Shown here: one piece after another, positions 8,987-35,883 of the stretch
How positions within the stretch are numbered: position 1 is the stretch's first letter
Layout of the letters: each line of letters begins with the position of its first letter
DNA from: a virus
IMG/VR virus record: IMGVR_UViG_3300032249_000985
Location: 1 to 35,883 of that record
Reading direction: 5' to 3' (one strand)
Length of the DNA: 35,883 nucleotides
Position numbers and translations under genes: made by a program
The notes under the pieces: model-generated
Told to the model about the DNA's origin: nothing
What the model saw: only the letters and a program-made list of their open reading frames with translations
Databases searched by the model: none

Positions 8987-8994
8987 TATTTATA
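8987..8994 (-). promoter_or_regulatory. T4-type late promoter ahead of the neck cluster
   Basis: Minus-strand TATAAATA, a perfect match to the T4 late box recognised by phage sigma gp55, lies 25 bases before the ATG of the 114-residue gene and directly after the stop codon of the 56-residue gene. Position between two genes supports function; AT-rich sequence makes isolated matches inside genes meaningless, and those were not listed. Confidence 0.75.
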
Positions 8995-8995
8995 T

Positions 8996-16500: not shown

Positions 16501-18066
16501 TTAGAATTCCAGAATAATTTTAACGTCTTCTTTTTGTCTAATATCTCTTTCTACCAGGGGTCTATTATCAATATAAATTATATCTCCCGTCTTTTTATTT
16601 ATCTCTGGATTTGCGAGACCATTTGTAAAAGTTACTCCTAAGTCTATAACTTTACCACCAATTGTAACTTTATTTGTATTGGTAACTGATGTGTCAATAG
16701 ATGCCGTAAAATCTCCATTCACACTTACAATACTTCCACCATTAGATTGAAAATCATATACATCAGGGTTACGATTGCTGTCCCTATAATCAGTTTCATC
16801 ATACTTTGTGGGATGATAATATAAAGATCTATCCCTAGAATATTTTAATACTCTTGTTTCACTATCATATGATGCCACATATCCTTTTGCAATTTTTCCA
16901 TCTGCTCTCGTTTGTTTAATTTCCTCCCCAACAACTGGAGTTCCACTAATTGATGTAGTAATTCCTGCATAGAGTGATGAATATTGATTTTCTGTAAAAA
17001 TTGTATTGGAAGTAAAGGTAGTTGGATTTTTTATAATTCCAACTTGAGCAAATTGAGTATCTGTTGGGAAATCTTTAGTAGAATCATCAAATCTGGCATA
17101 TATCAATACTTTATCAGTACCTAATTCTGAATAGATATCATACCCGTGTCCCTTAGATGGTGGAATAATTGGTATTAATTTTGCTGGATTAGAAATACTT
17201 CCAACTGGTTGAAAACTTCCCAAATCAACCATTCCCCAAGTATATCCACTGCCACCAGAAACGATAACAGTAGAAGTTATTACACCACCAGTAGTAGTAA
17301 CTGAGACTCTACCACCAGTACCATCACCAAGAATATTAAATTCAGTAGTACCACTAGTGCCAGAATTATATCCTCCTCCTCCATTTTCAATGTATACTTT
17401 TTTAATTTGATTTAAATTTATATCAGAATTTCCTGCTTCCCTAACAGAAACAATTTGAGAATCATTTGATGTTGCCCAATCATTAGGAACTGCAACATAT
17501 TCAGTCGAATCAAACTTTATAATATCACTTGGAGAAACTGAAAAAAGATATTTCCAAATATATCCATCTCCACTCACTCCTGCCGCAGATGGTTCTAAAT
17601 CTGTAAAAGTGGGCTCATCTTGTGATTTATTTCCTTTTGGGGTTTGTCCAGAAGAACCATTATCTATACAAATATAGACTCTATAATCACTATTAATTAC
17701 ATAATAATTTGAATCATACAATCTGCTTGAATTTGAATTTGGTGTTGGATTTGAAATACTATAATCATGCCTGTACATATCATAAGAAGTATTAGAAGTC
17801 CAAGTAACCTTTCTTATAAGTCTTCTAATATTACTACTAGTTATTTTTTTACCAAATAATGTAGTATCTTTATAATGTCCAGAATATTGAAGGTTATCGG
17901 TTGGGCTTGGTATATTAGAATTCCAATTAGTAGTTCTTCCAAATCCAACTGCTGTGGGATTATCTAGACCCAAAAAGACATAGTATGAATTATTGTTGGA
18001 CACTACAGATTCTACGAAATTGCTCGCATTCACTATTCTAAATTGGTCTGTTACGACTGCTGCCAT
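16501..18066 (-). CDS. 8: Baseplate wedge subunit gp8, enlarged
   Basis: 521 residues (T4 gp8 is 334). The family pattern is clear in residues 1-200: DQFRIVNASNFVESV, YYVFLGLDNPTAVGFG, NIRRLIRKVTW, YDSNYYVINSDYRVYICIDN, then SGDGYIWKYLFSVSPSDIIKF and EYVAVPNDW. Residues about 220-285 add a Gly-rich insertion with YIENGGGGYN and VSGGSGYTWG, the same G-x-G-Y module as in gp14. The rest returns to gp8-like sequence, with GHGYDIYSELGTDKVLI and LYYHPTKYDETDY, ending KTGDIIYIDNRPLVERDIRQ. gp8 dimers are part of each baseplate wedge together with gp6, gp7, gp10, gp11 and gp53. It has its own late promoter and starts 20 bases after the giant gene ends. Confidence 0.92.
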   Translation of the reverse strand: MAAVVTDQFRIVNASNFVESVVSNNNSYYVFLGLDNPTAVGFGRTTNWNSNIPSPTDNLQYSGHYKDTTLFGKKITSSNIRRLIRKVTWTSNTSYDMYRHDYSISNPTPNSNSSRLYDSNYYVINSDYRVYICIDNGSSGQTPKGNKSQDEPTFTDLEPSAAGVSGDGYIWKYLFSVSPSDIIKFDSTEYVAVPNDWATSNDSQIVSVREAGNSDINLNQIKKVYIENGGGGYNSGTSGTTEFNILGDGTGGRVSVTTTGGVITSTVIVSGGSGYTWGMVDLGSFQPVGSISNPAKLIPIIPPSKGHGYDIYSELGTDKVLIYARFDDSTKDFPTDTQFAQVGIIKNPTTFTSNTIFTENQYSSLYAGITTSISGTPVVGEEIKQTRADGKIAKGYVASYDSETRVLKYSRDRSLYYHPTKYDETDYRDSNRNPDVYDFQSNGGSIVSVNGDFTASIDTSVTNTNKVTIGGKVIDLGVTFTNGLANPEINKKTGDIIYIDNRPLVERDIRQKEDVKIILEF

Positions 18067-18083: not shown

Positions 18084-18091
18084 TATTTATA
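18084..18091 (-). promoter_or_regulatory. T4-type late promoter ahead of gp8
   Basis: Minus-strand TATAAATA lies 17 bases before the ATG of gp8 and overlaps the last bases of the giant upstream gene. It would allow gp8 and the genes after it to be transcribed without the 12.3-kb upstream gene, which makes sense for stoichiometry. Confidence 0.72.
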
Positions 18092-21000
18092 ATAGTTTGG
18101 AGAGTGCCCCAGTATCCCTTATACCTGTACCTCTTCTTTGAATTGTTGGGAATGTTGATAATCCAACATCCACAGTATTACCAGAAACTCCTATTGAAAT
18201 TGGAGAACCTGATCTAGTAAAATTGGACAACCTACCCCAAGAGAATTTACCTACGGGATTTGATACACTACCTGTAGATGCAAGTCCAACTATAGATGTA
18301 TTCGATTTTATGTTGCAGGTAATAATTCCAATATTACCACTTGAAGAGAGTTGGTGAATATAGTAAATGTTATCCAAGAATGTGGAACCAATTCCAACCA
18401 CAGATGAATCGGAGTTGTCAATAGAAGTTACTCCCCTTCCAACACGTGTATCAAAGATATAAATTGGATATCCAGTTTGCAATCCAACATAAGATGATGC
18501 ATTTAAGTGGAATCTCAATGCCAATGGATTTCCACCACTACCGGTTGTAGTTGTAATTCCAGTAATAATTCCAGAAAATCCATTCACTAAACCAATATTG
18601 GAAATATTTTCATATGTTGGATCTGGAAGGGGGACGATAACTCTTGGTGGTATACCAATACTATATCCCAATCCAGGATTTGTAATGGTAATAGGATTTG
18701 TTAAAGTTCCCGCAGCAGAAACTGCAATAGTTGCTGCTGCGATAGTTCCTATACCAATACCCACTTCTAATGGAGCAGCAATTTTAACAGTAACTGATGG
18801 ACCAACATATCCACTTCCAGGATTAGTAATTGATAATGATTGAATAGTTCCTGCAGCAGAAACTATTGCAGTAACTGCTGCAGATACTGGATCGGCAGTA
18901 CCAGAAAAAATTAACGCATCAAAATTTGTATTTACGTCATACTCAAACAAATTGGTTTGTCCAATCCCTGGACCATAATCGATAAAGATTTCATCGGAAG
19001 TAGTAGAAAAATCTTTAATAATCTTTGCGGTTGGATATATTAAAGATTCAATAGAATCTCTCGTTTTATAAACATCCTCACCATTAATTTTTCTATCAAC
19101 TTTTTGTTTAATCCAACTTAATGGTTTATTATTTTGGGTATCTACTCCTTGCTCAGAATATAAATTAGTTTCAAACTTATCCGAGAATGATAAATCAAAT
19201 ATTGTTCTCTTATTTTGTGAAATTGTTCCAGAAATACTATTATTTTTAAGTACTTGCACAGAATCCCCTCTTTTTAGAGTTTCATTGATATCTGTAATCA
19301 ATGTGCTATCATCACCTGCTGTTCCTCTGTAAAAGAAAATTGCAACATTATCTTCTGCTTTTGGTGCAGTTGTAAATACAAAAGATGTTCCACCATCAAA
19401 CTCATATGCCACTCCAGGATCTTGAATTACACCATTAATAACAATTAGTAATGCATTCGCAAGATTTACCTGAGAGCCCTCTTGAACTTCAAAACTCAAT
19501 AGTTCATTATTATAATATAGTGGAAATCTGTTCCTAATCCCATCTTGATAATTTTTGATAGAATCGATATAATCAAATTCACCAAATTGCCAAGCAGCAA
19601 ATGAATCTGTAAATGTATCAATAACAGTTAGATTAAATTCTGATAATGGAGATCCTAATCTTGAATCAGTAACTAGACCAACTGGTTTAAATACATCTCC
19701 ACGTTGAAAATTATATCCTTGTCTAGAAATATTAAATCTAGTTACTTCAAAATATGTTGAACCTATTCCGGTAGTTGAACTTGCTCCAACCTCAACATTT
19801 AAAAGTAGTCCTATTCCAGTAGATGTTGTTGTACCAATACCTAATCTGGATATACCAGTTACTCCAAGATTTTCATAAGAAGGTTCTGAAACAAATATCT
19901 TGGGATTACTATATCCAGTACCACCACCGATAATATTGAATGATAAGGTTCCTCCTGCACCAACAGATGCTGTTATAGTTGCTGCTGCTCCAGTATGCAC
20001 ACTTTGATATACTGATACTCCAATAGAGACAATACCATTGTATCCAGAACCAAGATTATCAGTAGTTCCTAGACCAACTGATACAATGCTACCACCTGCT
20101 CCCACTACAGCAGTTACTGCTGCTCCAACAAGAGGTGCATATCCCAATCCAGTAGATGACCCTAAGGAAATAATTATTCCACCTCTAGGAGTTTGATTTT
20201 GATTAACATCAAATTGAGAAGTGAAGATATCTAAAGTATTTGCTGATGTAATACCAGAAAATACTACACTACTTATTCCTGCAATAGAATTTTCAATAAT
20301 TCTAAAGTTATTTCCTGGATTATTATTGGTTGTTGGTGTTTGAAAAACACTGTTTATGAATAAAATACCATTCCCACCAGTAGATCCTAACCCAACAGTA
20401 TTTGCTCCACCAACGGTCAATGTAAAAGTTCTTCCAATACCTGTAAATTTGGCAGAAATATCATCATATATCTGATTAGTTGTATAATTATTTCTTAAAA
20501 ATACTCTACCAGTAAAATCGGATGTTTCAAATCTTAAATTTCCAGAAGTTCTTTCTATTTGTGGATTTCCTCTTGGGGATTCAGTAAAGAAAATGTTGTT
20601 ATCAGCAATATTATAAGAACCTTTATAAATTCTTGCTGCTGTAGAGTCCGTATGGGATGATGCCGATGAACCTACGAATCCCCTAACAACTTCCACCAAA
20701 GATATTATTCCACTATTTGTAATTGGTCCAATATTGGTTGTCCCTAAACCAACATTGACAATACCCATATATTCATTATCAATTTTGAGAATATCTTTTG
20801 GAGAAATTGTAGATATACCACTCAAAGCAAATATTGAAGATGCAGCATTAATTTGTCCACCATTTCCAAATAAATTATATGATATTGGTGTATATATCAA
20901 TGGATATTGAACTAAGTTATCAATAGTAATAATTGCTTTTTCATTTTTTTTATACATTTCAATTTGATGTGCATTTCCCTGACCATTAGAAATAAATGTA

Positions 21001-24000
21001 ACTCCTATACCTAATGCAGCATAATCTTGTCTTGTTGATAATTTAAACCTATCATTTGATATCTTAATAGCATAAACCTCAGATGGTAATAATGTAGTTA
21101 CAACACCAACAGAGTTTAGTGTTGAACCAATCCCAACAGATACTGATCCTATTCCAATAAATGTAGATTTTGGTGTATATACAAGTCTTTCACCATTACT
21201 AAAGAAGTGATTTGGTATTGTAAATACTCCAGTGCTTTTATTCAGTACAGAGGTGTTAGAAGGATCAAATGTTTTTGCAAAAATTGGATATCCATCAGAA
21301 GTTAAATTAAACTTAGTTCTGTTAACTCTATCCCCATTAATTGCATTATAAAAACTAACATTGACAGATTCTGTTATTTTTCCATATTCAAGATTTGGGG
21401 CAATATTTACATCATCTAAAATTGTGTATAAGCACTGGTTAAATGATAAAATATCAATTTTTGATGTTATTGATGAATCTGGATAGAATTTTAATATAAA
21501 ATTATTTCCCGAATATTCTGCTCCAAAAGTTCCAATTCCGTTGCTATCAAAAATACTAGTTCCGGTAGTACTTCCAATAGCAAGAAATGGTGACTGTTGG
21601 ACATATGCATTAGTAGTGTCCTGCACCATCATAATTTGATGTAAGGCACTTGTAGATCCAAAACTAACTTTAACTAAAGATTTAACTGCATTAAAATTGA
21701 ATTTATTTAGTGATATTACTGTTGTTGATGCTGCAGAAACTGATGAGGAATAATTTGATTGATATATTGCAGTTCTTTCAAATTCATCTATCTGTCCAGG
21801 TAATTTAAATCGATATGTTCCAACACCAACTGCTGTTGTACCAAATCCAACAATTTTTGATCTAATATCAACATCATTAGAGGAATCATTTGTATAATTC
21901 AAAGACAATATACCAGAGGAAATATTTGCAGCAAATGATCCTATGAAATTTCCCGAATAATTACTAGTCTGATATTCAGAATCAAAATAATATTGTGAAG
22001 TGTAAGTATTTGTACCATCATGTGTTACATATAATTCAACAAAATTCATATCATTTGTTAAAGTATCAATAACTTGACTATTCACATGTAGTGAAGTAAA
22101 TTTATTTGAGTTTACGGATATAATCGAAGTTGTTATTCCTGATGTTGCAATTCCGTTAGAACCTGTTAGATCAATGAATCCAATAGAAGTTGTTCCAATA
22201 CCAGGTAAAGTAGAATTGAATTCATTTTTGATCAATTTTAAATCATAGTCTACGTTATATGGATCAGTAGGTGTAAATTGTAGAGAAGTTTCATCAAATT
22301 CATTTGTAATTATTGAGAATGATCCAATTTCTTCTCCAGAAATATGTGTAAGTCCTGTCCCAACATTGACTATACTTCCTTTTTCTAATAAAAATCTATC
22401 TGCTCCATTATTTAATAGTACCAATTCTGTGAATTGAATTTGAGAATTATCTGAAGCAGAAACTCTGAGTAATAAATTACTATAAGATGCTCCAGAATTT
22501 AAATCAAGAATATTTAAAAACTCACTTGGTTCCCCATTCAAATTGGAAAATTGTCTGCTTATATCATCTACTCTTAAAACTACATTAGTTTTACATTCAG
22601 TATAATCTGTTAATTTTTTATTTTTTAATTTTAAAAATTTAGAAGAACTTCCAACAATATCAATATCTTTTACTAAATCAAAATCATAAATTGTATCTAC
22701 TCTATTTTCTTCAATTATGTCATAAATTATAGTTGTTGCATTTGAAATATTTGAAATTCCAAAATTTGTAGTTGATGTAATTCCAGTATCTGCAAAATTC
22801 TTCAATCCACTAGTATGGAGTAAGTTATTAACTGGAGTTCTTAGATTTTGATATGTAATAGGACTCTTTACTGTATATGATAGATTTTGATAGTAATCAT
22901 TATCTGCAATTACTTGGTTGTCTTCATTCAATTTTCCAATATTATTTGTCCACCCAAGATCCTTTCTAATAGAATAATCAACATCAAATCTTCCAGAATT
23001 AACTTTAATTGAATCTATAGTTGCTATGTTACCAGATTCTTTACCATTTATCACTTCTTCAACGGATAAATCATAAGATCCGTATACTTTAATGGATGTT
23101 TTATCATAATTGGTAACAATTAAATCTCTTTCAACATTGTTGGAGATAATTGTTTCTCCAATAATAAATGGTGATAATTTTTGCACAACTTCAAATGATG
23201 GGTAATCAGTACTCTTTATAATATTTCCAACCGAATCTTGAATTGTTTTTGCGATCCCAGTATTTGTTGTTAACCCAACGTTAAGTACGACCTTATCAAG
23301 AATACCCGTATTATCATAACCACTAACGGTAAAGAACTGATATCCATAGTTTTCAGAATTAAATCCAGAACCATCAGTACTAATTTTTTGAACACCTTCT
23401 ACAAATACTTTATCGCCAATATTAAATGGATTGGTTGAGAATCCAAGTACTGGTGTTGTTATAAAGCATGTAAAAATTCCACTAGAAGATGACTGCACCT
23501 GTTGGATACTAATTCCATTTGTATTATTAGATGCGAATAATCTTACTGCTGTTTCTGGAAGACCTTTAGGTTCTTGTACTATATTTACTGCAGAAATAGA
23601 ATTTCCAGTTATTACTGCCTCCAATATTCCACTATCAATTCTTTCTCCAGTTGTAGAGTCTATAATTACAATTGATGGAGCATTTGTATACCCTGTTCCA
23701 CCATCAATGACTGTAATAGTATCAATCGTATTTGAATTTTTAATTATAATTGATGGTGATATGTATGCATTGGGTTGTAAAGTTTTATCAGAAGAATATT
23801 CAAATCCTTCATTAACAATTCTTACTTCTTTTATATTTCCTACAGTTGATGATTTTGCAATAATGTAAGCATCTTGGCCATCAATAGAATCAGATCCTGT
23901 AAATACTGGCAATTTCTTATACCCTACTCCACCAGAAACAATGTTAATTTTATCAATAGAACCTTTTGCAGATACGGAATTTGTAGCATATGATAAAGTA

Positions 24001-27000
24001 TCACATTCATTTTGAGAATATGTTAGTTTTTCAGGAACTTTGTTCAAAGAAATGTTAAACGTAGTAGATCCAATCCCAGAAATGTTATAGTTTGAATTAT
24101 ATGCACTATCTACAAATAATATTTCCGAATAATTATTTACTTCAATATCTGGAGCAGAGATGTCTCCAGATTTTTCTAGATTGTAATACAATTTAGTTGG
24201 CAAATTACTATCATAATTAATAGTAAATGTAGCAGTAGTTGAAACTCCAACCGTTCCTACACCCGATAAATTGAATCCAGAAGTAGATGCGGTAGAAACA
24301 AATTCATTCTTAAATTGCTGATCATAATAAACTTTAAAATTATATCCAGATAAAGAAGAATCTGATAAATTAAATACCAGATTATTATTTTTGATTGATT
24401 GAATTTGGGGATTGATCGGGGCAAAATTTGCAGTTGTAAATGAAAAATTATTAACTGTAATAGGTGGGTTTGAAATTGAATCAATATAAGTCTCACAAAT
24501 ATTAATTTTATTTCTATCAATTTTATATGCAAAATATTCTTTATTAGAATTTAATACATAATCTAAGAAAACTTTATCACCAGTTTTTAATCCATGATTT
24601 TCGAGGTATAGTATATTACCATAATTTTTAACTGCTGGTGCTACATTAAATCCTAAATCTCCGGGAGAAATGTCTTCTGGAGCCGATCCGAATCTTGCAA
24701 GTAAAATACCATCGCTAAGAGGAGTTATTGTTGCACTACCATCAACATTAAAAAAAGAACTGACTATACCACATCTTGCAAAACATGTTGCATGAGTTGT
24801 CCTAGTTGCATTTTGGGGAAATGTGATTCCAGTTACAATGTTTGGAAAGGGTCCTGTTCCAAATAAATATCGAGTAATTATAAGACCATCATTATAACTT
24901 ACAACTCCATCGCCATCAATATCAAACTGATCATAATTATCCCACATATAATCATAAATTTGTTGAGCATTTCTAGTTGCCGTAGGAGCAACAGCACCAG
25001 TAGTCCATGCAATCCCAACAGCAGTATCTAAAGTTACAACTCTGGTGGGTTTGGTATAACTGAAATTCGAACTGTTACCAACTCCCATCACATTATCTCC
25101 TGTAAGAGATAATGGATTAATTAATAATTTATTATACGTTTGCTCATATTTTACCCTTATATTAGTGGAAGTTCCAATGCCAACTGAAAGATTTGGTTGA
25201 ACATTGAGGTTGATAATATCTCCAGCAGTTAATTCATGATATGTTGAAACCGAAACTGTAGATTTAATTTTTTCAACTCTTCCAGTTAATTGTGAATATA
25301 CACTTTCAAAGGAATATTCATCTGCATCACTACCATTTCCACGGAAGAATACTTCAGAGGAGTTTAGTGTAGTTTTAATTCCAATGACATTTTTATTCTT
25401 GTTAGTAACATATACATTTTGTGGCAAATCAAATTGACTTCCAGTTGGTGAAGTTGAGATTGCAATCGGATTGCCATTGCTTACAAACACAACTTGCTGA
25501 TTGTTTGTAAATGGATGGTTTTTAATATAAATTCCTTGTGTTGGAATATTTCTTGTAATAGTAGAATCACCAAATTGTGAAGTTATAGTATTTGTAATTC
25601 CTACAGTAGTTCCGACACCAACAGATTCTTTTGGGTTAAAGAATACTTTGTCATTGACTTTTGACTCAAAATAATCAATATTTTCAGAAATTGTAAATGA
25701 ATCGGGAATAAAATTTATTTGTGTAGTTGCAGTATGAGATACTCCTGTAGATCCTCTCTTTACTTTAAGTATGTTGAGATTTCTGAATACTTCTAGTACT
25801 TGTAATGTTTCTGTTCCTATTGCAATACTGCTTCCAACAGATACAGATGTTGGAAGTTGTGTAACATATACTTCTGTCGTTAATCCTACGGTTGATGTGG
25901 TGGGAATGTTCTTCAGAACATTAGAATAATAAGAAGATACTCCTATTTGGTAAGAATTATTTAATTTACTTAAATTAGTTGAGAAACCGGAAATTACAAC
26001 ATAATCATTATCAGATAAATTGTGGTAAGGTAAAATTGAAACCTTTACTTCCCCTTCATTGTTCCAAGTAAAAATTGCACCTTCATAAGTTTGCACAGAA
26101 GTATTTAATTCTACAATGTTCTTTCCTTCTATAGATGATACTCTTGATATTAATCCACCACCTTCTGTATTAGTGTTATCAAAAGTTAAGGTATCATTTA
26201 CCTTATAATTTGAACCAGAATTTATAATATCAAAATTATTTACATTTCCAACAGTTACTGACTCAACAATAGATCTTTGTCTTTTAATCTCATTAGTTTC
26301 AATTATAAAATCATTACCTGCATAGTCATCAGATACCTTGTATGGTAAAGTATTCCTAAGTAGATTAGAATTATTGAAATCAAATGATTGATCTAGTGTT
26401 AAATTCTCTTCTAAAGTATTGGACCTATAAGAATTTCCGACAAAATATGGAAATTGGGGTTCCAAGGTTCCAACTTTAATTGGAGCAAAATACGCATAGA
26501 TACCATTTGGAAATTCTGGAGTTTTTCCAAATCTTCCATTATTTTCATCCAAATCTCCGGAATTGGTGTACTCATAATCTTCAACAAAAAATCCAGCAGA
26601 AATTTCTACAGGTCTATCAATAATATTGGATGTATTTAATGTATATCCAGAAGTTAAAAGTTTTGGGGGGGAATTTGTATCTTCTGAATCCGAATATCCG
26701 TATGCACCATATATTGGGTTTCCATCATATGCCCACCCAATTATATTGGAAACACTGGTGCCAGTATCACCAAATGATTCCCTTAATGTATTAAAATATC
26801 CACAAACTGAATATTGTAACTTATTTTCAGTTTCTATTAAGAGTTCGTTTCCAAATCTGAAATTATTATTGACCGTTAGGGATCTAATACTGGATCTAAG
26901 TACTGCATTAGAACCTGATGGTTTAACTTGAATTGTAGTTGATGTATTTGAATACCCAATTCCGGTGTTTATAACTTTAACATCAGTTATTTTTCCATTT

Positions 27001-30000
27001 GTAATAACAGGTCTTAATTCTGCTCCCGATCCTTGTCCTGTTGAATCAGTTACAATTAAATCTGGAATTGAATAGTATTCTAATCCACCATACTGAATAT
27101 TTACTGAATTGACAGTGCCATTGATAATAATTGGTTTTAGTTGTGCTTCTTTACCATTTTTTATGGACACTGAAGGACTTCTTTCAAAGTTTAGAATAGT
27201 TGTCCCATAACCAGTTCCAGTTTCATATAAGTATGCATTTATAATACTACCTCTAACTTTAGGATCTGCTATCAGTGTTTGATATGCTTGAGATGTTGTA
27301 CCAAAACCAACAGAAGTGTACTGTATGGAAACTGAGATATCTGGATAATTAAAGTACTGATATCCAGATCCAATAGAAGAAAATATAATATGATTTTTTC
27401 TATTATAATTTGAAGTATTTGTTCCACCAACTCCAGCATCACACAACCTAAAAGAATTCTCATCGTTCTTTAAAATATAATATTGCGATAATGTAGAAAT
27501 TCCTATTGTGGATGATTCATAATTATATGTTACTAACTCCCCACTATTAAAACCATGATTTTCAAAATTAATAGTGTGATTGGATGTAGATATTCCCGTT
27601 GGTTTGACAATTAATTTTCTATTGGTATAACCACTACCCCCATTAATGATTTTAATTTCTGATATTGTATTCTTATTTGAAGTAGTTCTAAATTTATGAA
27701 TTCCTGAGTTATTATATGTACTAAATCCTACAGTATTAATACCAGTTGAATAATCGGAAATAGATGGGTACAATTTAACAGTTGTATTATTATCAATTTT
27801 TACATAATATGTTCCGTTATTAACCAAGGTTGAAGTTGCATACCCAACACCAATTGCAGCATTTCCATTGGAATTATAAATTACTGCTTCACCATTGACT
27901 AAATTGTGATCGGTTAAAAATGTAAGTTGTTTTGTAGTTGTACTAATACCGCCAGAATTTGTAGTTGCCCGGCCATCAAAAAATACTTCTCTTACTCTTT
28001 TTGTAAGAATTGGATTGAGAACAGCTCCAGAACCATTGCCACCACTTACACTAATTGATACGATAGAATCAATATCATAATCTTGTGCATCTATATAAAC
28101 TTCGGTAATGCTGCCACTAATTACTGGTTGTACTAAAGCAGTTGTTCCTATTCCAGATGAAATTGTTAGTAATGGTGGGTTAATAACGTCATAGTTGGTT
28201 CCACCATTCAATACATCGATAGATTCCAATGGACCATAATAAATTTTATCGTTTGATTTATAATTACTAATCTCTACACCATTAACTAGCATTCCAGTTG
28301 GACCTGGAATTGTTACTTGTTCAGTTCCATTTTCAGTATTTGTGGTTAGTGGAAATTTTTTAAGTACCTTTTGAGCACCAATTTGCCCAGATTTTTGAGA
28401 GTATAGTGTAAACGTATGGGCACCACTTGAAACCCCAACTGTTAAATAATTTTCTCCACCAATAAATGATCTGGAAGAGAATAATTTAATTTTTTTCTTA
28501 TCTACTGATTGAATCTGAACATAATAACTACCGGTTTCTAACCCAACCAAAGGTCTCAGTGTCGGTTGGTAATAAATTCTATCACCATTAATAAAATTAA
28601 CTGGAGTGTCAAATGCTATGGTTGAATAAGTGCCGTCACCAACAGCATCTGTTAAAATTCCAACTGTACCATTAGAAATTGATACTGTATTAATATTTTT
28701 TGTTATTTCGTAAGAAGGTAGTGAATTAGAAGCAGAATATGCATAATCTTGATCCGTATATAAATTCAATATATCCGATAAAATAGAATTATTTCCAAAT
28801 TCGATTGGAACTATTGAACTACTTGCTGTATTAATTTTCCTTCTTAAATCATATTCTATTCCAGATTCTGGAGTAAATGATAGATTGTTTAAAATGACTT
28901 TATTTTCTCCACTAATAATATTAGAAATATATGCAATATTTGTAGTAGAAGATGCTATATTATTTGTACCTCTTTCAATAATTTCAACTCTATCTCCAAT
29001 TTTTAAACTGGATTTATCAATTGGACTGGTTAAAATAAAATTGCCAATATCTTCTATTTGATATCTTGAACTAGTATTGTATATCCAAGAATTTGCAAAA
29101 ATTTGCTTATAATTTTTATTCTGTTCTGGATTTTGAATTAAATCTCCAAGATTTTTAACCGAAATAATATCACTTTCACTAACACCTAAATTATCTGATA
29201 CTTGTACAAATTGAGATGATACTCCAGTAAATCTTAATTCAACTTTCTTAGTGAGGTCTCCATCTTCATATCCATAATAAATTTCATCAGATCTTATATC
29301 ATCTGTAGAAGAAATTGTGGATGTAATACCAATACATCCAAAAAACTGATTGATACTCTTACTTGTGTAAGTGATGGTATTAATGCCAGATATGATTGTT
29401 CCAATTTCAGCAAATCCAATTGTGGAATCTACGGAAATTACCGAAGACCCAACAGAAATATTTTCAAGGCATTTTGTATTTGGTGTAATTGTAAAATTAC
29501 CGGCAACTGCAGAAATATCACTATATCCAACAAAGAGTGAAATTTTAAAATATTGCCTATTATTTCTAGTAAACGGTTCTACTTCAGAGATTGATGCACT
29601 TGTAATATCATCGGTTGATTTTTTAATAGTTTGACCAACCAGTTTAGAAGGATCTCCAGAGATTCTTTCTGCTATTACAACTTCTCTTCTAATAAATTCT
29701 GCAGAAGAGGGTTTAATTAAAAATTCTTCTAAGTTTACAACTCTGGGAGTTACTCCATATAGAATATTAAATAAAATTCGAAATGATTCATCTGTTCCCT
29801 TTGCCTGATAGAAGGATCTTGCTTCTTTTATAAAGTTGCCAACATTCAAATCGGAAACAAAATCAATATCCTCCAAACCTGGAGTTAGAGTATATTTTAG
29901 TTTTTTATAAAATTCTTTTAAAAATAATGAACTGAGATTTTGTACAGAAGAATCTGTAGAATGAGTTTTTGCAGTTGATTCTGAAAATATCAGTTCTTCC

Positions 30001-30410
30001 TGATTTAAATTTGCATGATAACTTGTGATACCACTAAATCCACGAATACAACCAGTGAATGTATTAGTAGTTATTCCAGTATATGTTATAATCTCGTCAT
30101 CAATTTTTAATAGTCCATAACTTTGTGGAAATCCTTTGGTACTTGTTACTGTAATGACTCCAACAGTAGAGCTAATATTTGTACTAAGTCCAACATTGCC
30201 GACAATAACTTCTGGAGTAAGATTGTCAAGTTTTAAATATTGATCCAGATTTTCTGCAATATCAATTGGACCACCTTGATATTCTTGAGAAATATAATAT
30301 TGCTTTAAAAACTCTGCGGCATTAGGACTTTCATCCAAAATAAAATTTGGAAGTTGACTTTCAATAACTTGTTGAACCTTAACTCTAGACTCAAATCCAG
30401 TCTGTATCAT
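18087..30410 (-). CDS. Giant baseplate-wedge-region protein in the gp7 position
   Basis: An uninterrupted 4107-codon gene, about four times T4 gp7 (1032). The N-terminus (MIQTGFESRVKVQQVIESQ, PNFILDESPNAAEFLKQYY, then LFLKEFYKKLKYTLTPGLED, FIKEARSFYQAKGTDESFRI) matches the start of the large cyanophage protein between gp6 and gp8. The rest is a mosaic: KIDDEIITYTG...IRGFSG units near residues 82-130, 1537 and 3207-3245; 'H-x-F/L-x-x-G-D/E-x-V' units near 860, 940, 1935 and 3050; G-x-G-Y units near 740, 923, 1065, 1108, 1150, 1398, 2160-2236, 3456-3498 and 3865-3915; a YHYH-like domain at 1225-1310; and a dockerin-like EF-hand pair at about 1808-1905. No signal or membrane segment is seen. It starts one base after gp6. 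A wedge-core role rests on gene order and the N-terminus; the rest is probably surface decoration. It may not be homologous to gp7 throughout. Confidence 0.8.
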   Translation of the reverse strand: MIQTGFESRVKVQQVIESQLPNFILDESPNAAEFLKQYYISQEYQGGPIDIAENLDQYLKLDNLTPEVIVGNVGLSTNISSTVGVITVTSTKGFPQSYGLLKIDDEIITYTGITTNTFTGCIRGFSGITSYHANLNQEELIFSESTAKTHSTDSSVQNLSSLFLKEFYKKLKYTLTPGLEDIDFVSDLNVGNFIKEARSFYQAKGTDESFRILFNILYGVTPRVVNLEEFLIKPSSAEFIRREVVIAERISGDPSKLVGQTIKKSTDDITSASISEVEPFTRNNRQYFKISLFVGYSDISAVAGNFTITPNTKCLENISVGSSVISVDSTIGFAEIGTIISGINTITYTSKSINQFFGCIGITSTISSTDDIRSDEIYYGYEDGDLTKKVELRFTGVSSQFVQVSDNLGVSESDIISVKNLGDLIQNPEQNKNYKQIFANSWIYNTSSRYQIEDIGNFILTSPIDKSSLKIGDRVEIIERGTNNIASSTTNIAYISNIISGENKVILNNLSFTPESGIEYDLRRKINTASSSIVPIEFGNNSILSDILNLYTDQDYAYSASNSLPSYEITKNINTVSISNGTVGILTDAVGDGTYSTIAFDTPVNFINGDRIYYQPTLRPLVGLETGSYYVQIQSVDKKKIKLFSSRSFIGGENYLTVGVSSGAHTFTLYSQKSGQIGAQKVLKKFPLTTNTENGTEQVTIPGPTGMLVNGVEISNYKSNDKIYYGPLESIDVLNGGTNYDVINPPLLTISSGIGTTALVQPVISGSITEVYIDAQDYDIDSIVSISVSGGNGSGAVLNPILTKRVREVFFDGRATTNSGGISTTTKQLTFLTDHNLVNGEAVIYNSNGNAAIGVGYATSTLVNNGTYYVKIDNNTTVKLYPSISDYSTGINTVGFSTYNNSGIHKFRTTSNKNTISEIKIINGGSGYTNRKLIVKPTGISTSNHTINFENHGFNSGELVTYNYESSTIGISTLSQYYILKNDENSFRLCDAGVGGTNTSNYNRKNHIIFSSIGSGYQYFNYPDISVSIQYTSVGFGTTSQAYQTLIADPKVRGSIINAYLYETGTGYGTTILNFERSPSVSIKNGKEAQLKPIIINGTVNSVNIQYGGLEYYSIPDLIVTDSTGQGSGAELRPVITNGKITDVKVINTGIGYSNTSTTIQVKPSGSNAVLRSSIRSLTVNNNFRFGNELLIETENKLQYSVCGYFNTLRESFGDTGTSVSNIIGWAYDGNPIYGAYGYSDSEDTNSPPKLLTSGYTLNTSNIIDRPVEISAGFFVEDYEYTNSGDLDENNGRFGKTPEFPNGIYAYFAPIKVGTLEPQFPYFVGNSYRSNTLEENLTLDQSFDFNNSNLLRNTLPYKVSDDYAGNDFIIETNEIKRQRSIVESVTVGNVNNFDIINSGSNYKVNDTLTFDNTNTEGGGLISRVSSIEGKNIVELNTSVQTYEGAIFTWNNEGEVKVSILPYHNLSDNDYVVISGFSTNLSKLNNSYQIGVSSYYSNVLKNIPTTSTVGLTTEVYVTQLPTSVSVGSSIAIGTETLQVLEVFRNLNILKVKRGSTGVSHTATTQINFIPDSFTISENIDYFESKVNDKVFFNPKESVGVGTTVGITNTITSQFGDSTITRNIPTQGIYIKNHPFTNNQQVVFVSNGNPIAISTSPTGSQFDLPQNVYVTNKNKNVIGIKTTLNSSEVFFRGNGSDADEYSFESVYSQLTGRVEKIKSTVSVSTYHELTAGDIINLNVQPNLSVGIGTSTNIRVKYEQTYNKLLINPLSLTGDNVMGVGNSSNFSYTKPTRVVTLDTAVGIAWTTGAVAPTATRNAQQIYDYMWDNYDQFDIDGDGVVSYNDGLIITRYLFGTGPFPNIVTGITFPQNATRTTHATCFARCGIVSSFFNVDGSATITPLSDGILLARFGSAPEDISPGDLGFNVAPAVKNYGNILYLENHGLKTGDKVFLDYVLNSNKEYFAYKIDRNKINICETYIDSISNPPITVNNFSFTTANFAPINPQIQSIKNNNLVFNLSDSSLSGYNFKVYYDQQFKNEFVSTASTSGFNLSGVGTVGVSTTATFTINYDSNLPTKLYYNLEKSGDISAPDIEVNNYSEILFVDSAYNSNYNISGIGSTTFNISLNKVPEKLTYSQNECDTLSYATNSVSAKGSIDKINIVSGGVGYKKLPVFTGSDSIDGQDAYIIAKSSTVGNIKEVRIVNEGFEYSSDKTLQPNAYISPSIIIKNSNTIDTITVIDGGTGYTNAPSIVIIDSTTGERIDSGILEAVITGNSISAVNIVQEPKGLPETAVRLFASNNTNGISIQQVQSSSSGIFTCFITTPVLGFSTNPFNIGDKVFVEGVQKISTDGSGFNSENYGYQFFTVSGYDNTGILDKVVLNVGLTTNTGIAKTIQDSVGNIIKSTDYPSFEVVQKLSPFIIGETIISNNVERDLIVTNYDKTSIKVYGSYDLSVEEVINGKESGNIATIDSIKVNSGRFDVDYSIRKDLGWTNNIGKLNEDNQVIADNDYYQNLSYTVKSPITYQNLRTPVNNLLHTSGLKNFADTGITSTTNFGISNISNATTIIYDIIEENRVDTIYDFDLVKDIDIVGSSSKFLKLKNKKLTDYTECKTNVVLRVDDISRQFSNLNGEPSEFLNILDLNSGASYSNLLLRVSASDNSQIQFTELVLLNNGADRFLLEKGSIVNVGTGLTHISGEEIGSFSIITNEFDETSLQFTPTDPYNVDYDLKLIKNEFNSTLPGIGTTSIGFIDLTGSNGIATSGITTSIISVNSNKFTSLHVNSQVIDTLTNDMNFVELYVTHDGTNTYTSQYYFDSEYQTSNYSGNFIGSFAANISSGILSLNYTNDSSNDVDIRSKIVGFGTTAVGVGTYRFKLPGQIDEFERTAIYQSNYSSSVSAASTTVISLNKFNFNAVKSLVKVSFGSTSALHQIMMVQDTTNAYVQQSPFLAIGSTTGTSIFDSNGIGTFGAEYSGNNFILKFYPDSSITSKIDILSFNQCLYTILDDVNIAPNLEYGKITESVNVSFYNAINGDRVNRTKFNLTSDGYPIFAKTFDPSNTSVLNKSTGVFTIPNHFFSNGERLVYTPKSTFIGIGSVSVGIGSTLNSVGVVTTLLPSEVYAIKISNDRFKLSTRQDYAALGIGVTFISNGQGNAHQIEMYKKNEKAIITIDNLVQYPLIYTPISYNLFGNGGQINAASSIFALSGISTISPKDILKIDNEYMGIVNVGLGTTNIGPITNSGIISLVEVVRGFVGSSASSHTDSTAARIYKGSYNIADNNIFFTESPRGNPQIERTSGNLRFETSDFTGRVFLRNNYTTNQIYDDISAKFTGIGRTFTLTVGGANTVGLGSTGGNGILFINSVFQTPTTNNNPGNNFRIIENSIAGISSVVFSGITSANTLDIFTSQFDVNQNQTPRGGIIISLGSSTGLGYAPLVGAAVTAVVGAGGSIVSVGLGTTDNLGSGYNGIVSIGVSVYQSVHTGAAATITASVGAGGTLSFNIIGGGTGYSNPKIFVSEPSYENLGVTGISRLGIGTTTSTGIGLLLNVEVGASSTTGIGSTYFEVTRFNISRQGYNFQRGDVFKPVGLVTDSRLGSPLSEFNLTVIDTFTDSFAAWQFGEFDYIDSIKNYQDGIRNRFPLYYNNELLSFEVQEGSQVNLANALLIVINGVIQDPGVAYEFDGGTSFVFTTAPKAEDNVAIFFYRGTAGDDSTLITDINETLKRGDSVQVLKNNSISGTISQNKRTIFDLSFSDKFETNLYSEQGVDTQNNKPLSWIKQKVDRKINGEDVYKTRDSIESLIYPTAKIIKDFSTTSDEIFIDYGPGIGQTNLFEYDVNTNFDALIFSGTADPVSAAVTAIVSAAGTIQSLSITNPGSGYVGPSVTVKIAAPLEVGIGIGTIAAATIAVSAAGTLTNPITITNPGLGYSIGIPPRVIVPLPDPTYENISNIGLVNGFSGIITGITTTTGSGGNPLALRFHLNASSYVGLQTGYPIYIFDTRVGRGVTSIDNSDSSVVGIGSTFLDNIYYIHQLSSSGNIGIITCNIKSNTSIVGLASTGSVSNPVGKFSWGRLSNFTRSGSPISIGVSGNTVDVGLSTFPTIQRRGTGIRDTGALSKLL
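24696..24989 (-). other. Dockerin-like paired EF-hand region within the giant protein
   Basis: Residues about 1808-1905. The first loop is FDIDGDGVVSYNDG followed by LIITRYLFG, giving Asp at loop positions 1, 3, 5 and 12. The second is FFNVDGSATITPLSDG followed by ILLARFG, with Asn, Asp and Ser at 1, 3, 5 and Asp at 13. The linker has NATRTTHA. This pairing, with the R-Y-L-F-G helix after each loop, is the layout of dockerin-type calcium-binding repeats in bacterial extracellular proteins. Confidence 0.75.
26481..26738 (-). other. YHYH-like domain within the giant protein
   Basis: Residues about 1225-1310 carry GWAYDGNPIYGAYGY, then SGDLDENNGRFG, FPNGIYAYFAP and PQFPYFVGNSY. The G-x-A-x-D-G-x-P-I-Y-G start, the L-D-x-x-N-G-R centre and the Y-A-Y near the end follow the YHYH family known from marine bacterial and viral proteins. 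Its namesake Y-H-Y-H is degenerate here (YAYF), so any metal or catalytic role is doubtful. Confidence 0.7.
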
Positions 30411-30411: not shown

Positions 30412-32322
30412 TTACTTTCTTATTAAATTCCCGTTTGAATAACTTGATGTATAGTAATCTCTGGAAAATACCGTTCCCGATATTTCATCACCAGAGGCAA
30501 TTACATCTCTTACCATATTTATTGTGCTTTCTGAAATGCTAAAATTTAAATATAAATCCTTTAATCCTACCACATCATTTGATTCTGGAAATGCCTGTAT
30601 CTGAATAGCATCATCTTCTAATGATGTTGACGTAATATTTACTGTTCCCAGTCTAATCTCACCTTTTGAATAATCGACTGTTCCCGCAGATTTTACAACA
30701 ATTCTTGTAGTTCCATCACTAATAGGTTTTACTATGGAAAGAATTCCCATCCCACTACCATCTAAATCTCCAGAAGAAGTTTTATTTGGCACATCTGTTA
30801 GATATACCGTATCTGGTTCACTCGAAATTTTAAACCCAGTAGATTTAATATTATATCCATCAAAATTAATATGGAATTTATTTCCAAAACATAGTTCATA
30901 TTGTGCAAATTGATTCGTCAGAGCCTTCAAATCTCTTCGAATTATTACCTTAGTGATATTGGAAGTTATAGCAGTGTCGGTATTATCAATAACTTGGGCA
31001 ATTTTACTATACTTAAATCTTCCACCAAATTTATTAAGATCCAAAGAATTTGAATAATTTGTCAGTGAATTAACTACCTTTGTCTTTAAAGATTCAACTG
31101 CCGAGACTTGAGAGTAATTATAGTAAATTGATGCATCAATTTCTACGTACAATATCTTAAGATCGATTATTTTCTGATTAATACCAGAAATACTGTATTG
31201 TTTTAATTGTGATAAAATTCTGGATTTTGAAAAGTCAGAAACATAAGTTCCATTTTTTGGTTTAATGCTTATAGATACTGTTCCAAATTCTGGTGGAACC
31301 AATTCTTCCCCCCCAACAACAGCAACGGATTCGGTTTCTGGATAAATCTTTTTGATAATTGCTTCGTAGTCACGTGCTGTTACTGCTCTATATTGGGATG
31401 AATAAATTCTTGGTGCAAAATACTTAATTGAATCCACTGACTCAATATCAGAACCATTTTGGGATGATTGATTTGTTGCAATTGTTATATTACCCAAACT
31501 AGGAAATCCACCATTTGCACTCTTAATACTTCCAGAGAATGAAAATGAAGATGCACCATTACCTTCTTTACCATCGGTGACAATATAAGTGACTGTAATT
31601 ACCGCATTATTTTCCAATTTCTTACCAATTAATCCATCACCAAAAAGTAATTCGTATTTTTCATCCTGAACTTCTTGTATAAGATAAATTCGTGAAGAAG
31701 AATCTACATTAAGAATATTATCAACTAAAGAGTACTCTACTCCAAGCCCTGTGTCATTAATTCCCTTCACATAAACTGAAATTGTGGAGGTATCAACATA
31801 TGAATTATTAATTATAAATCTTTGGTCCAAAGAACCATCAACTGTAAATTGCTTTGTTAAAAATGTTCCTTGATAGACATCAATATTATTGAAAGATGCA
31901 GTACCGTTAATAACACTTGTTGAGATATTATCCGGAATTGAAAAAGTATATGATGAGTTATCAACGTCCCCCACGCACACTAGACCTGCCTGTAAGGTCA
32001 CTATTGGAGTGTCTGTACTAATTGGTACGTTAAATGATATTTGTGCCTTTGCTGCCGTTCTAGAACGGGGTACGTAACCAATATTTCTTGCTAATGAAAC
32101 TACATTTTCACGAAGAGTCGCAGAATCCAAGAAGGATTCGTTAACGATCATATTTGAGTTGAATGCGGTAATATATGTGTTATATGCTAACGTATCAATT
32201 AATACTGAAAAATTAGACCCCTCAAAGTCAAAATCCGTGAACGTGGAATTGGCACGGAGATAATCCTTGATAGAAGTCTTTATCTGATCAAAATCTAGAT
32301 TTGTAAATTTAGTAAAAGGCAT
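30412..32322 (-). CDS. 6: Baseplate wedge subunit gp6
   Basis: 636 residues, close to T4 gp6 (660). The N-terminus MPFTKFTNLDFDQIKTSI, then FTDFDFEGSNFSVLIDTLAYNT, NESFLDSATLRENVVSLAR and IGYVPRSRTAAKA is the gp6 signature. Residues 222-246 show the Baseplate_J-like centre (KYELLFGDGLIGKKL followed by ITVTYIVTDG). Later segments include ARDYEAIIKKIYPETESVAVVGGEE and a C-terminal domain. gp6 forms the dimeric ring backbone that ties wedges together. It follows gp25 by one base and precedes the giant gene by one base, as in the T4-like baseplate operon. An AGAGG element lies somewhat far (about 14 bases) upstream of the ATG. No insertions are evident. Confidence 0.95.
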   Translation of the reverse strand: MPFTKFTNLDFDQIKTSIKDYLRANSTFTDFDFEGSNFSVLIDTLAYNTYITAFNSNMIVNESFLDSATLRENVVSLARNIGYVPRSRTAAKAQISFNVPISTDTPIVTLQAGLVCVGDVDNSSYTFSIPDNISTSVINGTASFNNIDVYQGTFLTKQFTVDGSLDQRFIINNSYVDTSTISVYVKGINDTGLGVEYSLVDNILNVDSSSRIYLIQEVQDEKYELLFGDGLIGKKLENNAVITVTYIVTDGKEGNGASSFSFSGSIKSANGGFPSLGNITIATNQSSQNGSDIESVDSIKYFAPRIYSSQYRAVTARDYEAIIKKIYPETESVAVVGGEELVPPEFGTVSISIKPKNGTYVSDFSKSRILSQLKQYSISGINQKIIDLKILYVEIDASIYYNYSQVSAVESLKTKVVNSLTNYSNSLDLNKFGGRFKYSKIAQVIDNTDTAITSNITKVIIRRDLKALTNQFAQYELCFGNKFHINFDGYNIKSTGFKISSEPDTVYLTDVPNKTSSGDLDGSGMGILSIVKPISDGTTRIVVKSAGTVDYSKGEIRLGTVNITSTSLEDDAIQIQAFPESNDVVGLKDLYLNFSISESTINMVRDVIASGDEISGTVFSRDYYTSSYSNGNLIRK

Positions 32323-32995: not shown

Positions 32996-33322
32996 TTAAC
33001 GACATACTTCCCGAAGAGAATAATTATCTGAATTTAAATATTTTAACAACTCTATTGCAATTAGTTTTGGATTTCCTTCACCACAAGTATAAACATCTAT
33101 TGCCAAGCAACCTTCCTCTGGCCACGTATGACACGATACATGACTCTCAGAGAGTGCAATGACTATCGTACACCCCTGAGGTATAAAGCAATGCTTGAAG
33201 ACGTTTAGAATGGTCATTCCTGCTCGTTGAATGCCATTTACCATTACCTTTTCAATTGCCACAGCATCATTAATGAGATCGTATTTAACATTATACACCT
33301 CTAGTAATAGGTGCCTGCCCAT
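32996..33322 (-). CDS. speD: S-adenosylmethionine decarboxylase (SpeD), class 1 prokaryotic type
   Basis: 108 residues from ATG. The active-site segment is LSESHVSCHTWPEEG (from residue 57) followed by CLAIDVYTCG. By comparison with the Thermotoga enzyme, Ser60 would become the pyruvoyl group after self-cleavage between Glu59 and Ser60, His65 is the processing residue and Cys80 the catalytic acid; all are present, so it should be active. SpeD makes decarboxylated AdoMet, the aminopropyl donor for spermidine. It is a common auxiliary metabolic gene of cyanomyoviruses, where polyamines may condense phage DNA or support host photosystems. The chosen ATG has GGA upstream; an in-frame TTG five codons earlier (33337) lacks a ribosome site. 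The gene has its own late-type promoter right after a terminator, making it an independent unit. Confidence 0.94.
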   Translation of the reverse strand: MGRHLLLEVYNVKYDLINDAVAIEKVMVNGIQRAGMTILNVFKHCFIPQGCTIVIALSESHVSCHTWPEEGCLAIDVYTCGEGNPKLIAIELLKYLNSDNYSLREVCR

Positions 33323-33363
33323 TGAAAACTTTTCCAATTCGATAATAGTTTAAATAAAAAAAA

Positions 33364-34515: not shown

Positions 34516-34688
34516 TCTTCTTTTTTTTCGGTTAATACTAAGTCTGTTCCCTCTAGAGAAAAGTTTATCTCACTATCCTCATACCAAGAAAGTTCATTCA
34601 CAATCCATTCGGGTATTACAACATAATACTCACCAGTAATCGGATCGACTTGTAGAGACTCAAAATTTTTGCCGGAATTTTTTTTCAT
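34512..34688 (-). CDS. AbrB/MazE-fold small protein, putative transcription regulator
   Basis: Read by hand: 58 residues, MKKNSGKNFESLQVDPITG, then EYYVVIPEWIVNELSWYED, SEINFSLEGTDLVLTEKKED. The order of a short strand, G-E-Y-Y-V-V-I-P, a helix (EWIVNELSWYE), G/S-x-E-I-N-F-S and a final strand D-L-V-L-T-E is the swapped-hairpin AbrB/SpoVT/MazE fold; these act as dimeric DNA-binding regulators or antitoxins. No toxin gene is adjacent, so a regulator is more likely. It has a late promoter set in a 6-bp inverted repeat, and the downstream glycosyltransferase promoter overlaps its stop codon. The ATG has no clear Shine-Dalgarno. Autoregulation is an attractive inference. Confidence 0.78.
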   Translation of the reverse strand: MKKNSGKNFESLQVDPITGEYYVVIPEWIVNELSWYEDSEINFSLEGTDLVLTEKKED

Positions 34689-34697
34689 TTTAAGTAT

Positions 34698-34723
34698 TAT
34701 AATTTACCTTTTTCAAAATTATA
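34698..34723 (-). repeat. AT-rich inverted repeat in the AbrB-like gene leader
   Basis: On the minus strand TATAATTT and AAATTATA are perfect 8-base arms around a 10-base spacer that contains AAAAAGG. The stem would be weak because it is all A-T, and such repeats arise by chance in AT-rich sequence. It lies between the late promoter and the ATG. Confidence 0.35.
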
Positions 34724-34746
34724 TAGTCTCGGCAATTTTTTGAGTG

Positions 34747-34768
34747 AATCGATATTTATAGGTCGATT
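34747..34768 (-). promoter_or_regulatory. Late promoter framed by an inverted repeat, ahead of the AbrB-like gene
   Basis: Minus-strand CTATAAATA contains a perfect late box at 34760-34753. It is flanked by AATCGA and TCGATT, exact 6-bp inverted arms ten bases apart, so the box sits inside a symmetrical site. The leader to the ATG is about 65 bases. The arrangement looks like an operator over a promoter. Confidence 0.65.
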
Positions 34769-34884
34769 TGGGTCAGTTGTAGGTTAGGGTAGTGATGGGT
34801 TTTTAAACACGGGGGCACGGGGGGGCAACGACCGCACCGGGGGCACTGCTGATTCACGAACGAATAGGGTGCCCATAGCACGAA

Positions 34885-34908
34885 CCCCCCACCCCGAAGG
34901 GCAGGGGG
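34885..34908 (-). terminator. GC-rich hairpin after the 88-residue gene
   Basis: Minus strand: CCCCC, TG, CCC, a TTCG loop, GGG, T, then GGGGGG followed by TT. The UUCG tetraloop and uninterrupted G-C pairs make it very stable. It starts 11 bases after the stop codon. It shares its plan with the hairpin at 35544-35567. There is no long T-run, so termination is likely but unproven. Confidence 0.6.
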
Positions 34909-34919
34909 CAGGGAGTGCA

Positions 34920-35186
34920 TCATGCCGGGCAGGAGATCCGACCTGCCTCTGGGTTGCAATAGTAACGGTGACCGGGACCGACCCACCCCTGCCATGAGGT
35001 GTGCAGGTCTGCCAACTCAGCAGCAGGCAGACCATCATCCTGCCATCCACGGGTATGGGTGTTTGCCTGACCTTTGCCCGGTTCCACCAATTCGGTTCCG
35101 TTCCATTTGGGAAGGTTGCTCACCTTGGTTCCGATCCATACGGTCTGACGGGTCACGAGGTCTGATGCTTGATTGTAGAGTGCCAT
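34920..35186 (-). CDS. 88-residue hypothetical phage protein in the GC-rich stretch
   Basis: 88 residues beginning MALYNQASDLVTRQTVWIG, then NLPKWNGTELVEPGKGQANTH in part, TRGWQDDGLPAAELADLH and ending GHRYYCNPEAGRISCPA. The balanced composition, with Trp in regular spacing and no low complexity, argues for a real gene rather than a GC-rich shadow; I cannot name a family. I chose the ATG at 35186 over an in-frame GTG at 35222 because a conserved leader (GAACCAAACGACC) and a -10 box (TACAAT) lie between the two and would otherwise be coding. There is no Shine-Dalgarno. Codon use is GC-rich, unlike the structural genes downstream. Confidence 0.65.
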   Translation of the reverse strand: MALYNQASDLVTRQTVWIGTKVSNLPKWNGTELVEPGKGQANTHTRGWQDDGLPAAELADLHTSWQGWVGPGHRYYCNPEAGRISCPA

Positions 35187-35193
35187 GAGGTGG

Positions 35194-35218
35194 GGTCGTT
35201 TGGTTCGGTTTAATTGTA
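35194..35218 (-). promoter_or_regulatory. Promoter plus shared leader, 88-residue gene
   Basis: Minus-strand TGC-TACAAT (an extended -10) at 35218-35213, six bases, then GAACCAAACGACC at 35206-35194, seven bases before the ATG. The 13-base leader is identical to that of the 87-residue gene, and the spacing to the -10-like box is the same. No -35 box is visible, as allowed for extended -10 promoters. Confidence 0.5.
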
Positions 35219-35226
35219 GCACGGTG

Positions 35227-35241
35227 AGGGGGCAACCCCCT
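35227..35241 (-). terminator. GC-rich hairpin overlapping the stop of the 87-residue gene
   Basis: Minus-strand AGGGGG, a TTG loop and CCCCCT form a 6-bp stem that begins in the last two bases of the TAG stop codon. It ends nine bases before the next -10 box. It lacks a T-run. The GGGGGTTGCC portion is shared with the hairpin region upstream of the 87-residue gene. Confidence 0.45.
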
Positions 35242-35503
35242 AGAGGTCTGCCATCATCTCAACCATCTCTGCCTCATCGATTGCGGGGTCGTTCCACTTC
35301 ACCCCGTCGCGGGTCTGACCCAGCATCCGTCCGATCTGCCCATCCGTCATGCAACGGACGAATTTTGCCCATGGGGTCTCATTGGTGCCGCAGTACTCAA
35401 CACATGCCTTAGCAGTATTGTAGAGAAACTCATCGTTGCCAATCCAGAGGGCAGCATTCCAGGTCTGGTAATTTGCCCAACCGTTGTAGGTGTTGCTGGT
35501 CAT
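35240..35503 (-). CDS. 87-residue phage protein, N-G-W-x-N-Y-x-T-W type
   Basis: 87 residues. The N-terminus MTSNTYNGWANYQTWNAALW, then IGNDEFLYNTAKACVEY, belongs to a family of short phage proteins whose signature is Y-N-G-W-x-N-Y-x-T-W, common in marine cyanophages and other phages; function unknown. The middle and end (TPWAKFVRCMTDGQIGRML, TRDGVKWNDPAIDEAEM) keep the W-D-P-like motif seen in cyanophage relatives. No Shine-Dalgarno precedes the ATG; instead there is a C-run and the shared GAACCAAACGACC leader. The gene is GC-rich in contrast with the structural operon. Confidence 0.82.
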   Translation of the reverse strand: MTSNTYNGWANYQTWNAALWIGNDEFLYNTAKACVEYCGTNETPWAKFVRCMTDGQIGRMLGQTRDGVKWNDPAIDEAEMVEMMADL

Positions 35504-35511
35504 GGGGGGGA

Positions 35512-35536
35512 GGTCGTTTGGTTCTTACGTATCCTA
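35512..35536 (-). promoter_or_regulatory. Promoter-like box plus shared leader, 87-residue gene
   Basis: Minus-strand TAGGAT at 35536-35531, six bases, then GAACCAAACGACC at 35524-35512, eight bases before the ATG. Same order and spacing as at 35194-35218. The hexamer is a poorer -10 match; the case rests on the repetition. Confidence 0.42.
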
Positions 35537-35543
35537 CAGGCAA

Positions 35544-35567
35544 CCCCCCACCGAATCCGGCAGGGGG
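35544..35567 (-). terminator. GC-rich hairpin after the 38-residue gene
   Basis: Minus strand: CCCCC, TG, CCG, a GATT loop, CGG, T, GGGGGG then TT. The layout, including the TG/T internal bulge, matches the hairpin at 34885-34908 with a different loop. It begins 11 bases after the stop codon at 35579, the same distance as the other copy. Confidence 0.6.
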
Positions 35568-35578
35568 TGGACACTTGC

Positions 35579-35695
35579 TCAACTGTCCTGATCTGCCCCC
35601 TGTTGGTCATCAGATGCGATAGACTCCAGGATGCTCAGCAATTCATTACCATTGCTGGCACGATTGAGCAGGGCAGATGCAATTTCAAAGGTCAT
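35579..35695 (-). CDS. 38-residue small phage protein
   Basis: Read by hand: MTFEIASALLNRASNGNEL, then LSILESIASDDQQGADQDS. It is a single predicted helical unit, ALLNRAxxGNELLxILxxI, followed by an acidic tail. I associate MTFExAxALLNRAxxGxELLxIL with tiny conserved cyanophage proteins of unknown role. No Shine-Dalgarno is clear before the ATG. Its stop is followed 11 bases later by a stable hairpin, consistent with an independent gene. The shortness keeps confidence moderate. Confidence 0.6.
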   Translation of the reverse strand: MTFEIASALLNRASNGNELLSILESIASDDQQGADQDS

Positions 35696-35761
35696 GAGTT
35701 AGTGTTAGATAGTGTGGTTTGAGTGAGGGTGTCTTTAGAGCGCATCCCATTCTCTTTGATG

Positions 35762-35881: not shown

Positions 35882-35883
35882 AA

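Follow-up and report, generated by a model that had tools for sequence, protein, structure and literature searches.

A gp7-type baseplate wedge protein carries an inserted domain

The window (by which we mean the whole stretch of DNA analysed, 35,883 nucleotides) is the virus record IMGVR_UViG_3300032249_000985, a 35.9-kb record of an uncultured marine cyanophage with T4-like tail genes. These encode gp25-like, gp6-like and gp8-like proteins, a gp7-type protein of 4107 aa and a DUF4815 protein; as judged by the tail genes, the nearest named phages are those of Synechococcus and Prochlorococcus, with S-SKS1 at the top. The gp7-type protein is assigned as a wedge subunit both by its match to the phrog_2885 profile and by the position of its gene between the gp6-like and gp8-like genes. 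The gp7 of P-SSM2 is among its matches, and its pieces, searched against the PDB, gave no useful match. The features referred to below are the following:

18087-30410, minus strand: gp7-type baseplate wedge protein, 4107 aa (phrog_2885 baseplate wedge subunit, E=0)
30412-32322: gp6-like gene, adjoining the gp7-type gene
16501-18066: gp8-like gene, adjoining the gp7-type gene (Phage-Gp8 match)
24615-25070, minus strand: inserted segment, gp7 residues about 1781-1932
about 24675-25049, minus strand: conserved two-unit dockerin-like domain, gp7 residues ~1788-1912, delimited by alignments and internal duplication
24933-24980, minus strand: putative entry helix of unit 1, ATRNAQQIYDYMWDNY, residues 1811-1826, kept in all site-A copies
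24888-24923, minus strand: predicted calcium loop 1, DIDGDGVVSYND, residues 1830-1841
24858-24890, minus strand: putative exit helix of unit 1, DGLIITRYLFG, residues 1841-1851, aligning with DGLLISRYLFG of the bacterial repeat L104
24768-24812, minus strand: putative entry helix of unit 2, NATRTTHATCFARCG, starting NATRT, residues 1867-1881
24711-24749, minus strand: predicted calcium loop 2, NVDGSATITPLSD, residues 1888-1900 (13 residues)
24687-24713, minus strand: putative exit helix of unit 2, DGILLARFG, residues 1900-1908

The gp7 proteins of cyanophages are very large, and most of their sequence lacks an explanation; a domain with empty sites, an occurrence in several loops of the one protein and a bacterial counterpart offers a handle on how gp7 grows and which of its loops are exposed. 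Elsewhere in the same protein, residues 1215-1311 (window 26478-26768) match a YHYH domain (PF14240, E 1.6e-25) that is possibly also borrowed.

The domain is built of two duplicated units

The earlier note had described two duplicated Asp-rich loops with helix ends; these are real (gp7 residues 1830-1841 and 1888-1900), and the domain that holds them extends beyond the 24696-24989 (gp7 residues 1808-1905) that it was given. Loop 1 has Asp at positions 1, 3, 5 and 12 and Ser at position 9, that is, the full dockerin/EF-hand ligand pattern, and D43, D45, G46, D47 and G48 are invariant in an alignment of 11 sequences. Loop 2 is degenerate in the window copy (N1, D3, S5, A6) and one residue longer than loop 1; in phage relatives it reads DVDGSGLVQPLGD and similar, and its bacterial counterpart, DVDGDGETKALSD, likewise has 13 residues. 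Each loop is preceded by an ATR-headed, helix-like stretch (PTATRNAQQIYDYMWDNY and QNATRTTHATCFARCGIV) and followed by a stretch of the DGLLIxRYLFG type. The helices of each unit are putative; the entry stretch of unit 1 is modelled as a helix in a low-confidence model. The motif NATRT had been taken for a linker, a reading that we rule out: it is the start of the unit 2 entry helix, which aligns with TATRNAQQIYDYM of unit 1 and with bacterial GATRTTATAIETYL, and unit 1 has TATRN as its counterpart. In three phages (the window, L002 and L004) this second entry helix contains a C-x3-C motif.

As judged by alignment, the two halves of the domain are duplicates of one another. When the two units are aligned with each other as profiles, hhalign gives a probability of 96% and an E of 1.5e-9, which indicates a tandem duplication of loop plus helix, and the halves of the window domain score far above shuffled versions (z = 7.1, 0 of 1000 as high). 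A loop-catching pattern has only these two matches in the 4107-aa protein, compared with an average of 0.005 in 2000 shuffles, which never gave a pair within 75 aa; since the pattern was written after the loops had been seen, this is a rough control only. The loops are also conserved across independent phage contigs. Internal duplication, the shuffle control and conservation among the phage copies rule out a chance motif.

The domain resembles dockerins and differs from them in spacing

Dockerin_1 (PF00404) is the top Pfam match of the stretch, located at 24843-24926 in the window, although the window copy scores 15.7-16.8 bits against a cutoff of 22.9. Relatives exceed this cutoff both at the same site (L092, 28.1 bits; L096, 23.5 bits) and at other sites (L128, 30.2 bits; L134, 25.4 bits; L099, 35.2 bits); L002, L004, L033, L093 and L094 fall below it. 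When a profile of the phage domain was searched against the PDB, dockerin-type repeats (8x39/8x3a, 4uyq, 2y3n, 4uyp and 1ohz, cellulosomal dockerins included) ranked before calmodulins, at modest E-values of 2e-4 to 0.01. An NCBIfam search of the domain gave no match, and a search for Cohesin (PF00963) in nine phage records, of which several are fragmentary, was negative.

The likeness to type I dockerins consists of two calcium loops, the first with the Asp pattern given above, a helix-like stretch after each loop, internal duplication, and several phage relatives past the Pfam cutoff. The phage unit is longer (58 aa as compared to 33-36) and has an additional putative ATR entry helix: the loop starts lie 58 residues apart in the window and, as read from the profile alignments, 36 in 4uyq and 33 in 2y3n. 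It differs further in its 13-residue second loop and its location inside a baseplate protein. With EF-hands (PF00036, PF13202, PF13405) the domain shares the DxDGDG loop and predicted entry and exit helices, while it stays below all cutoffs and has Asp, not Glu, at position 12. We do not file it as a cohesin-binding dockerin because its spacing and the window's Pfam score fall outside the dockerin range and no cohesin was found in the records searched. Of the dockerin-type claim, then, the duplicated dockerin-like calcium-loop architecture stands, and the dockerin spacing and, for the window copy, the profile score do not; on sequence grounds, the domain is a dockerin-like EF-hand repeat. In the open literature searched, the coverage of which is incomplete, no relevant paper connected dockerin-like domains with cyanophages or phage baseplates.

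Related repeats occur in gammaproteobacterial proteins

Among cellular sequences, the nearest to the domain are repeats of 57-58 residues found in proteins of gammaproteobacteria, and sequence similarity over whole units indicates that the phage domain is homologous to them. A search of genome contigs with the single protein had no match; an alignment as query found Leucothrix. A Phycisphaerales protein found by the alignment query was set aside, as its sequence has the look of ordinary EF-hand repeats. The Leucothrix mucor MAG (L104) has a 711-aa open frame with a two-unit repeat close to the N-terminus; the units of this repeat are collinear with those of the phage domain, with a period of 57 as compared to 58 in the window, and BLASTP gave E 4e-12 against the window (two-sequence comparison) and 6e-15 against L092 (single comparison). 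The repeat is held by 24 of the 63 genomes of Leucothrix's order, in several protein architectures.

Gammaproteobacterial copies (L104, L145, L147, L148) share FxGxALI..ATRTTA..I..YL..FDxDGDG..LSDGLLIxRYLFG with the phage copies and belong to proteins that start with a signal-like sequence or have other modules of an apparently extracellular kind. The phage copies, unlike the bacterial ones, have a leader of their own, VGIAxTSKAIS, and are located in gp7. A tblastn search with three domain variants and the bacterial repeat found none among 50,697 phage records (cultured phages), and a search of plasmids for the domain also found none.

Most relatives lack the domain at the window's site

With the upstream flank as the sole query, 77 viral loci were found, 72 of which span the site. 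At 70 of these 72 there is only a short linker (e.g. TGINTTSSTITINSH); the domain is present in L033, while L064 combines a short linker with a propeller-like insert ~25 residues downstream. The proportion of empty to filled depends on the sampling of relatives, and in most of them the site is empty all the same. P-SSM2, S-SRM01 and Sf-CH8 have an empty site too. The comparison of relatives with and without the domain that the earlier note had proposed is available at one and the same site and, together with the bacterial relatives, it bears out the view that the domain is an insertion in gp7. The empty sites rule out that it is an ordinary part of gp7.

Searches with the domain as query showed L002-L006 and L092-L097 to be filled at the same site as the window, L003, L005 and L095 being near-copies of, or the same contig as, L002, L004 and L033, respectively. 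On the flank tree the filled state takes two changes, with the window, L002 and L004 forming one clade; one origin of the filled site, followed by a loss, may instead account for it.

S-SKS1 (L084 6001-8435) and L064 carry a propeller-like insert with repeats such as SLRFKPDGTKMYALGSSADEVNEYALSTPW and a weak SGL match. It lies ~25 aa downstream of the window's site, in the loop where L128 has its dockerin-like domain; a different insert being found nearby, the region tolerates insertions. The gp7 region of S-SKS1 (NC_020851.1; L084 1486-8483) has no annotated gene across 7 kb and is broken up into overlapping open frames (1478-3607, 3541-8343 and 8331-11669), a pattern suggestive of frameshifts, real or sequencing-derived.

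The domain occupies four gp7 sites in different phages

Four gp7 sites in all carry the domain in different phages: the window's site, a position ~25 residues beyond it (L128, in the loop where S-SKS1 has its insert), one near window residue 1520 (L132, L134, L136-L139) and one near the gp7 C-terminal repeats (L099). The leader and first unit are still recognisable in site-B and site-C copies (L136: VGTAITSKAL..TR..VYDYIWDNYDEFDVDGDGVVS), and the eight phage records searched for further copies have a single one apiece. The domain tree groups the sites only partly, fitting both repeated capture and movement within gp7, and it fits either direction of transfer. Its distribution suggests that the domain is a movable accessory unit, with kin in a family of bacterial repeats. 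The accessory domains known from structural proteins of tailed phages are likewise optional, patchy and variable in position; from Ig-like and other such domains this one differs in being a predicted helical calcium-loop repeat rather than a beta-sandwich.

In L136 (~5001-5700) a further stretch (GSDPDNVVRGKVSIGQSVNSTFVAAGTTVTAIG...) parts the two units, an apparent insert within the insert. Another, unassigned phage protein (L140 3-5447, L143 3-5375) combines an FG-GAP match with a Dockerin_1 match near its C-terminus (FDIDGDGIVSANDARLLVRYFMGR..ATRFKPSDIENYL). We rejected L100-L103 as relatives: their DxDGDG matches belong to another phage protein and seem to be unrelated.

Pairwise comparison of the filled copies gives a domain dN/dS of 0.15-0.69, always below 1 and similar to the flanks; the window paired with its two nearest gives 0.15 and 0.27. 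These values are rough because many of the pairs have diverged strongly at synonymous sites. The calcium-loop residues are invariant although the copies diverge to about 50%. In the dN/dS analysis, window/L002 and L093/L095 resemble each other more closely in the domain than in its flanks at both kinds of site, a pattern that would fit exchange of the domain between lineages.

A putative calcium-stabilised contact module on the baseplate

Both AlphaFold2 models are of low confidence (mean pLDDT 41.5 and 50.2); in one of them the right-hand flank is predicted to be beta-rich, with a block pLDDT of 71-86, while the prediction for the insert is not confident. Because most phages lack the domain and the others have it at one of four gp7 sites, it does not form part of the core wedge; its optional presence and variable position argue against a role in core assembly and for an external contact. 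We consider it probable that it is an accessory domain: a calcium-stabilised, surface-exposed baseplate module making contacts outside the core. On this reading, two EF-hand-like units sit in a loop of the giant gp7 that joins two beta-rich modules. Each unit comprises a putative entry helix headed by ATR, a calcium loop of the DxDGDG type and a putative DGLLIxRYLFG exit helix, with a period of ~58 residues. In calcium-rich seawater at least loop 1 would bind Ca2+ and keep the module folded, and the two units may pack against one another. The module would then project from the baseplate surface via the gp7 loop and could contact a fibre, an adjacent protein of the baseplate or the envelope of the host. 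The helices, calcium binding, exposure and contact function are inferred. A precedent, likened by role and not by homology, is the wedge protein of cyanophage A-1(L), which has an insertion domain that, in one copy, reaches out and holds the long tail fibre (PMC10966104). If it does bind calcium and a surface, the module would be a testable accessory contact on the baseplate rather than on the fibres.

Two other readings we regard as unlikely. The domain could act as a calcium-dependent structural lock, fastening gp7 to an adjacent protein within the baseplate and thereby adjusting stability or the trigger for contraction; its location in the baseplate and the conservation of loop 1 are compatible with this, but most relatives build their baseplate without it, and the differing sites across phages do not fit one specific internal contact. 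It is similarly unlikely that the domain is a neutral or selfish passenger, spreading by recombination into tolerant loops and doing little. Its patchy distribution over several sites, and the pairs in which it is more alike than its flanks, are what such a passenger would leave; against this stand the dN/dS below 1 in every pair, the invariant calcium-loop residues and the stable presence within two clades.

Our preferred reading, an external contact module, has a bolder extension that we hold to be quite improbable: a mobile calcium-responsive module from the bacterial surface-repeat family, moving between wedge loops and coupling extracellular Ca2+ to adsorption or baseplate triggering. That the domain is a true dockerin docking to a cohesin on phage or host, as the earlier note had proposed, is very hard to credit, since, for all its duplicated dockerin-type loops and the relatives above the Dockerin_1 cutoff, the nine phage records (several fragmentary) have no Cohesin match, the spacing is 58 as compared to 33-36, and the window copy scores below the cutoff.

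Other features of the window

Beside the baseplate genes lies an S-adenosylmethionine decarboxylase gene (window 32996-33337; PF02675, E 1.3e-29). Towards the window end (34600-35883) the G+C climbs from ~0.31 to 0.50-0.60; the open reading frame at 35240-35503, within this high-G+C end, is nevertheless a common cyanophage gene.
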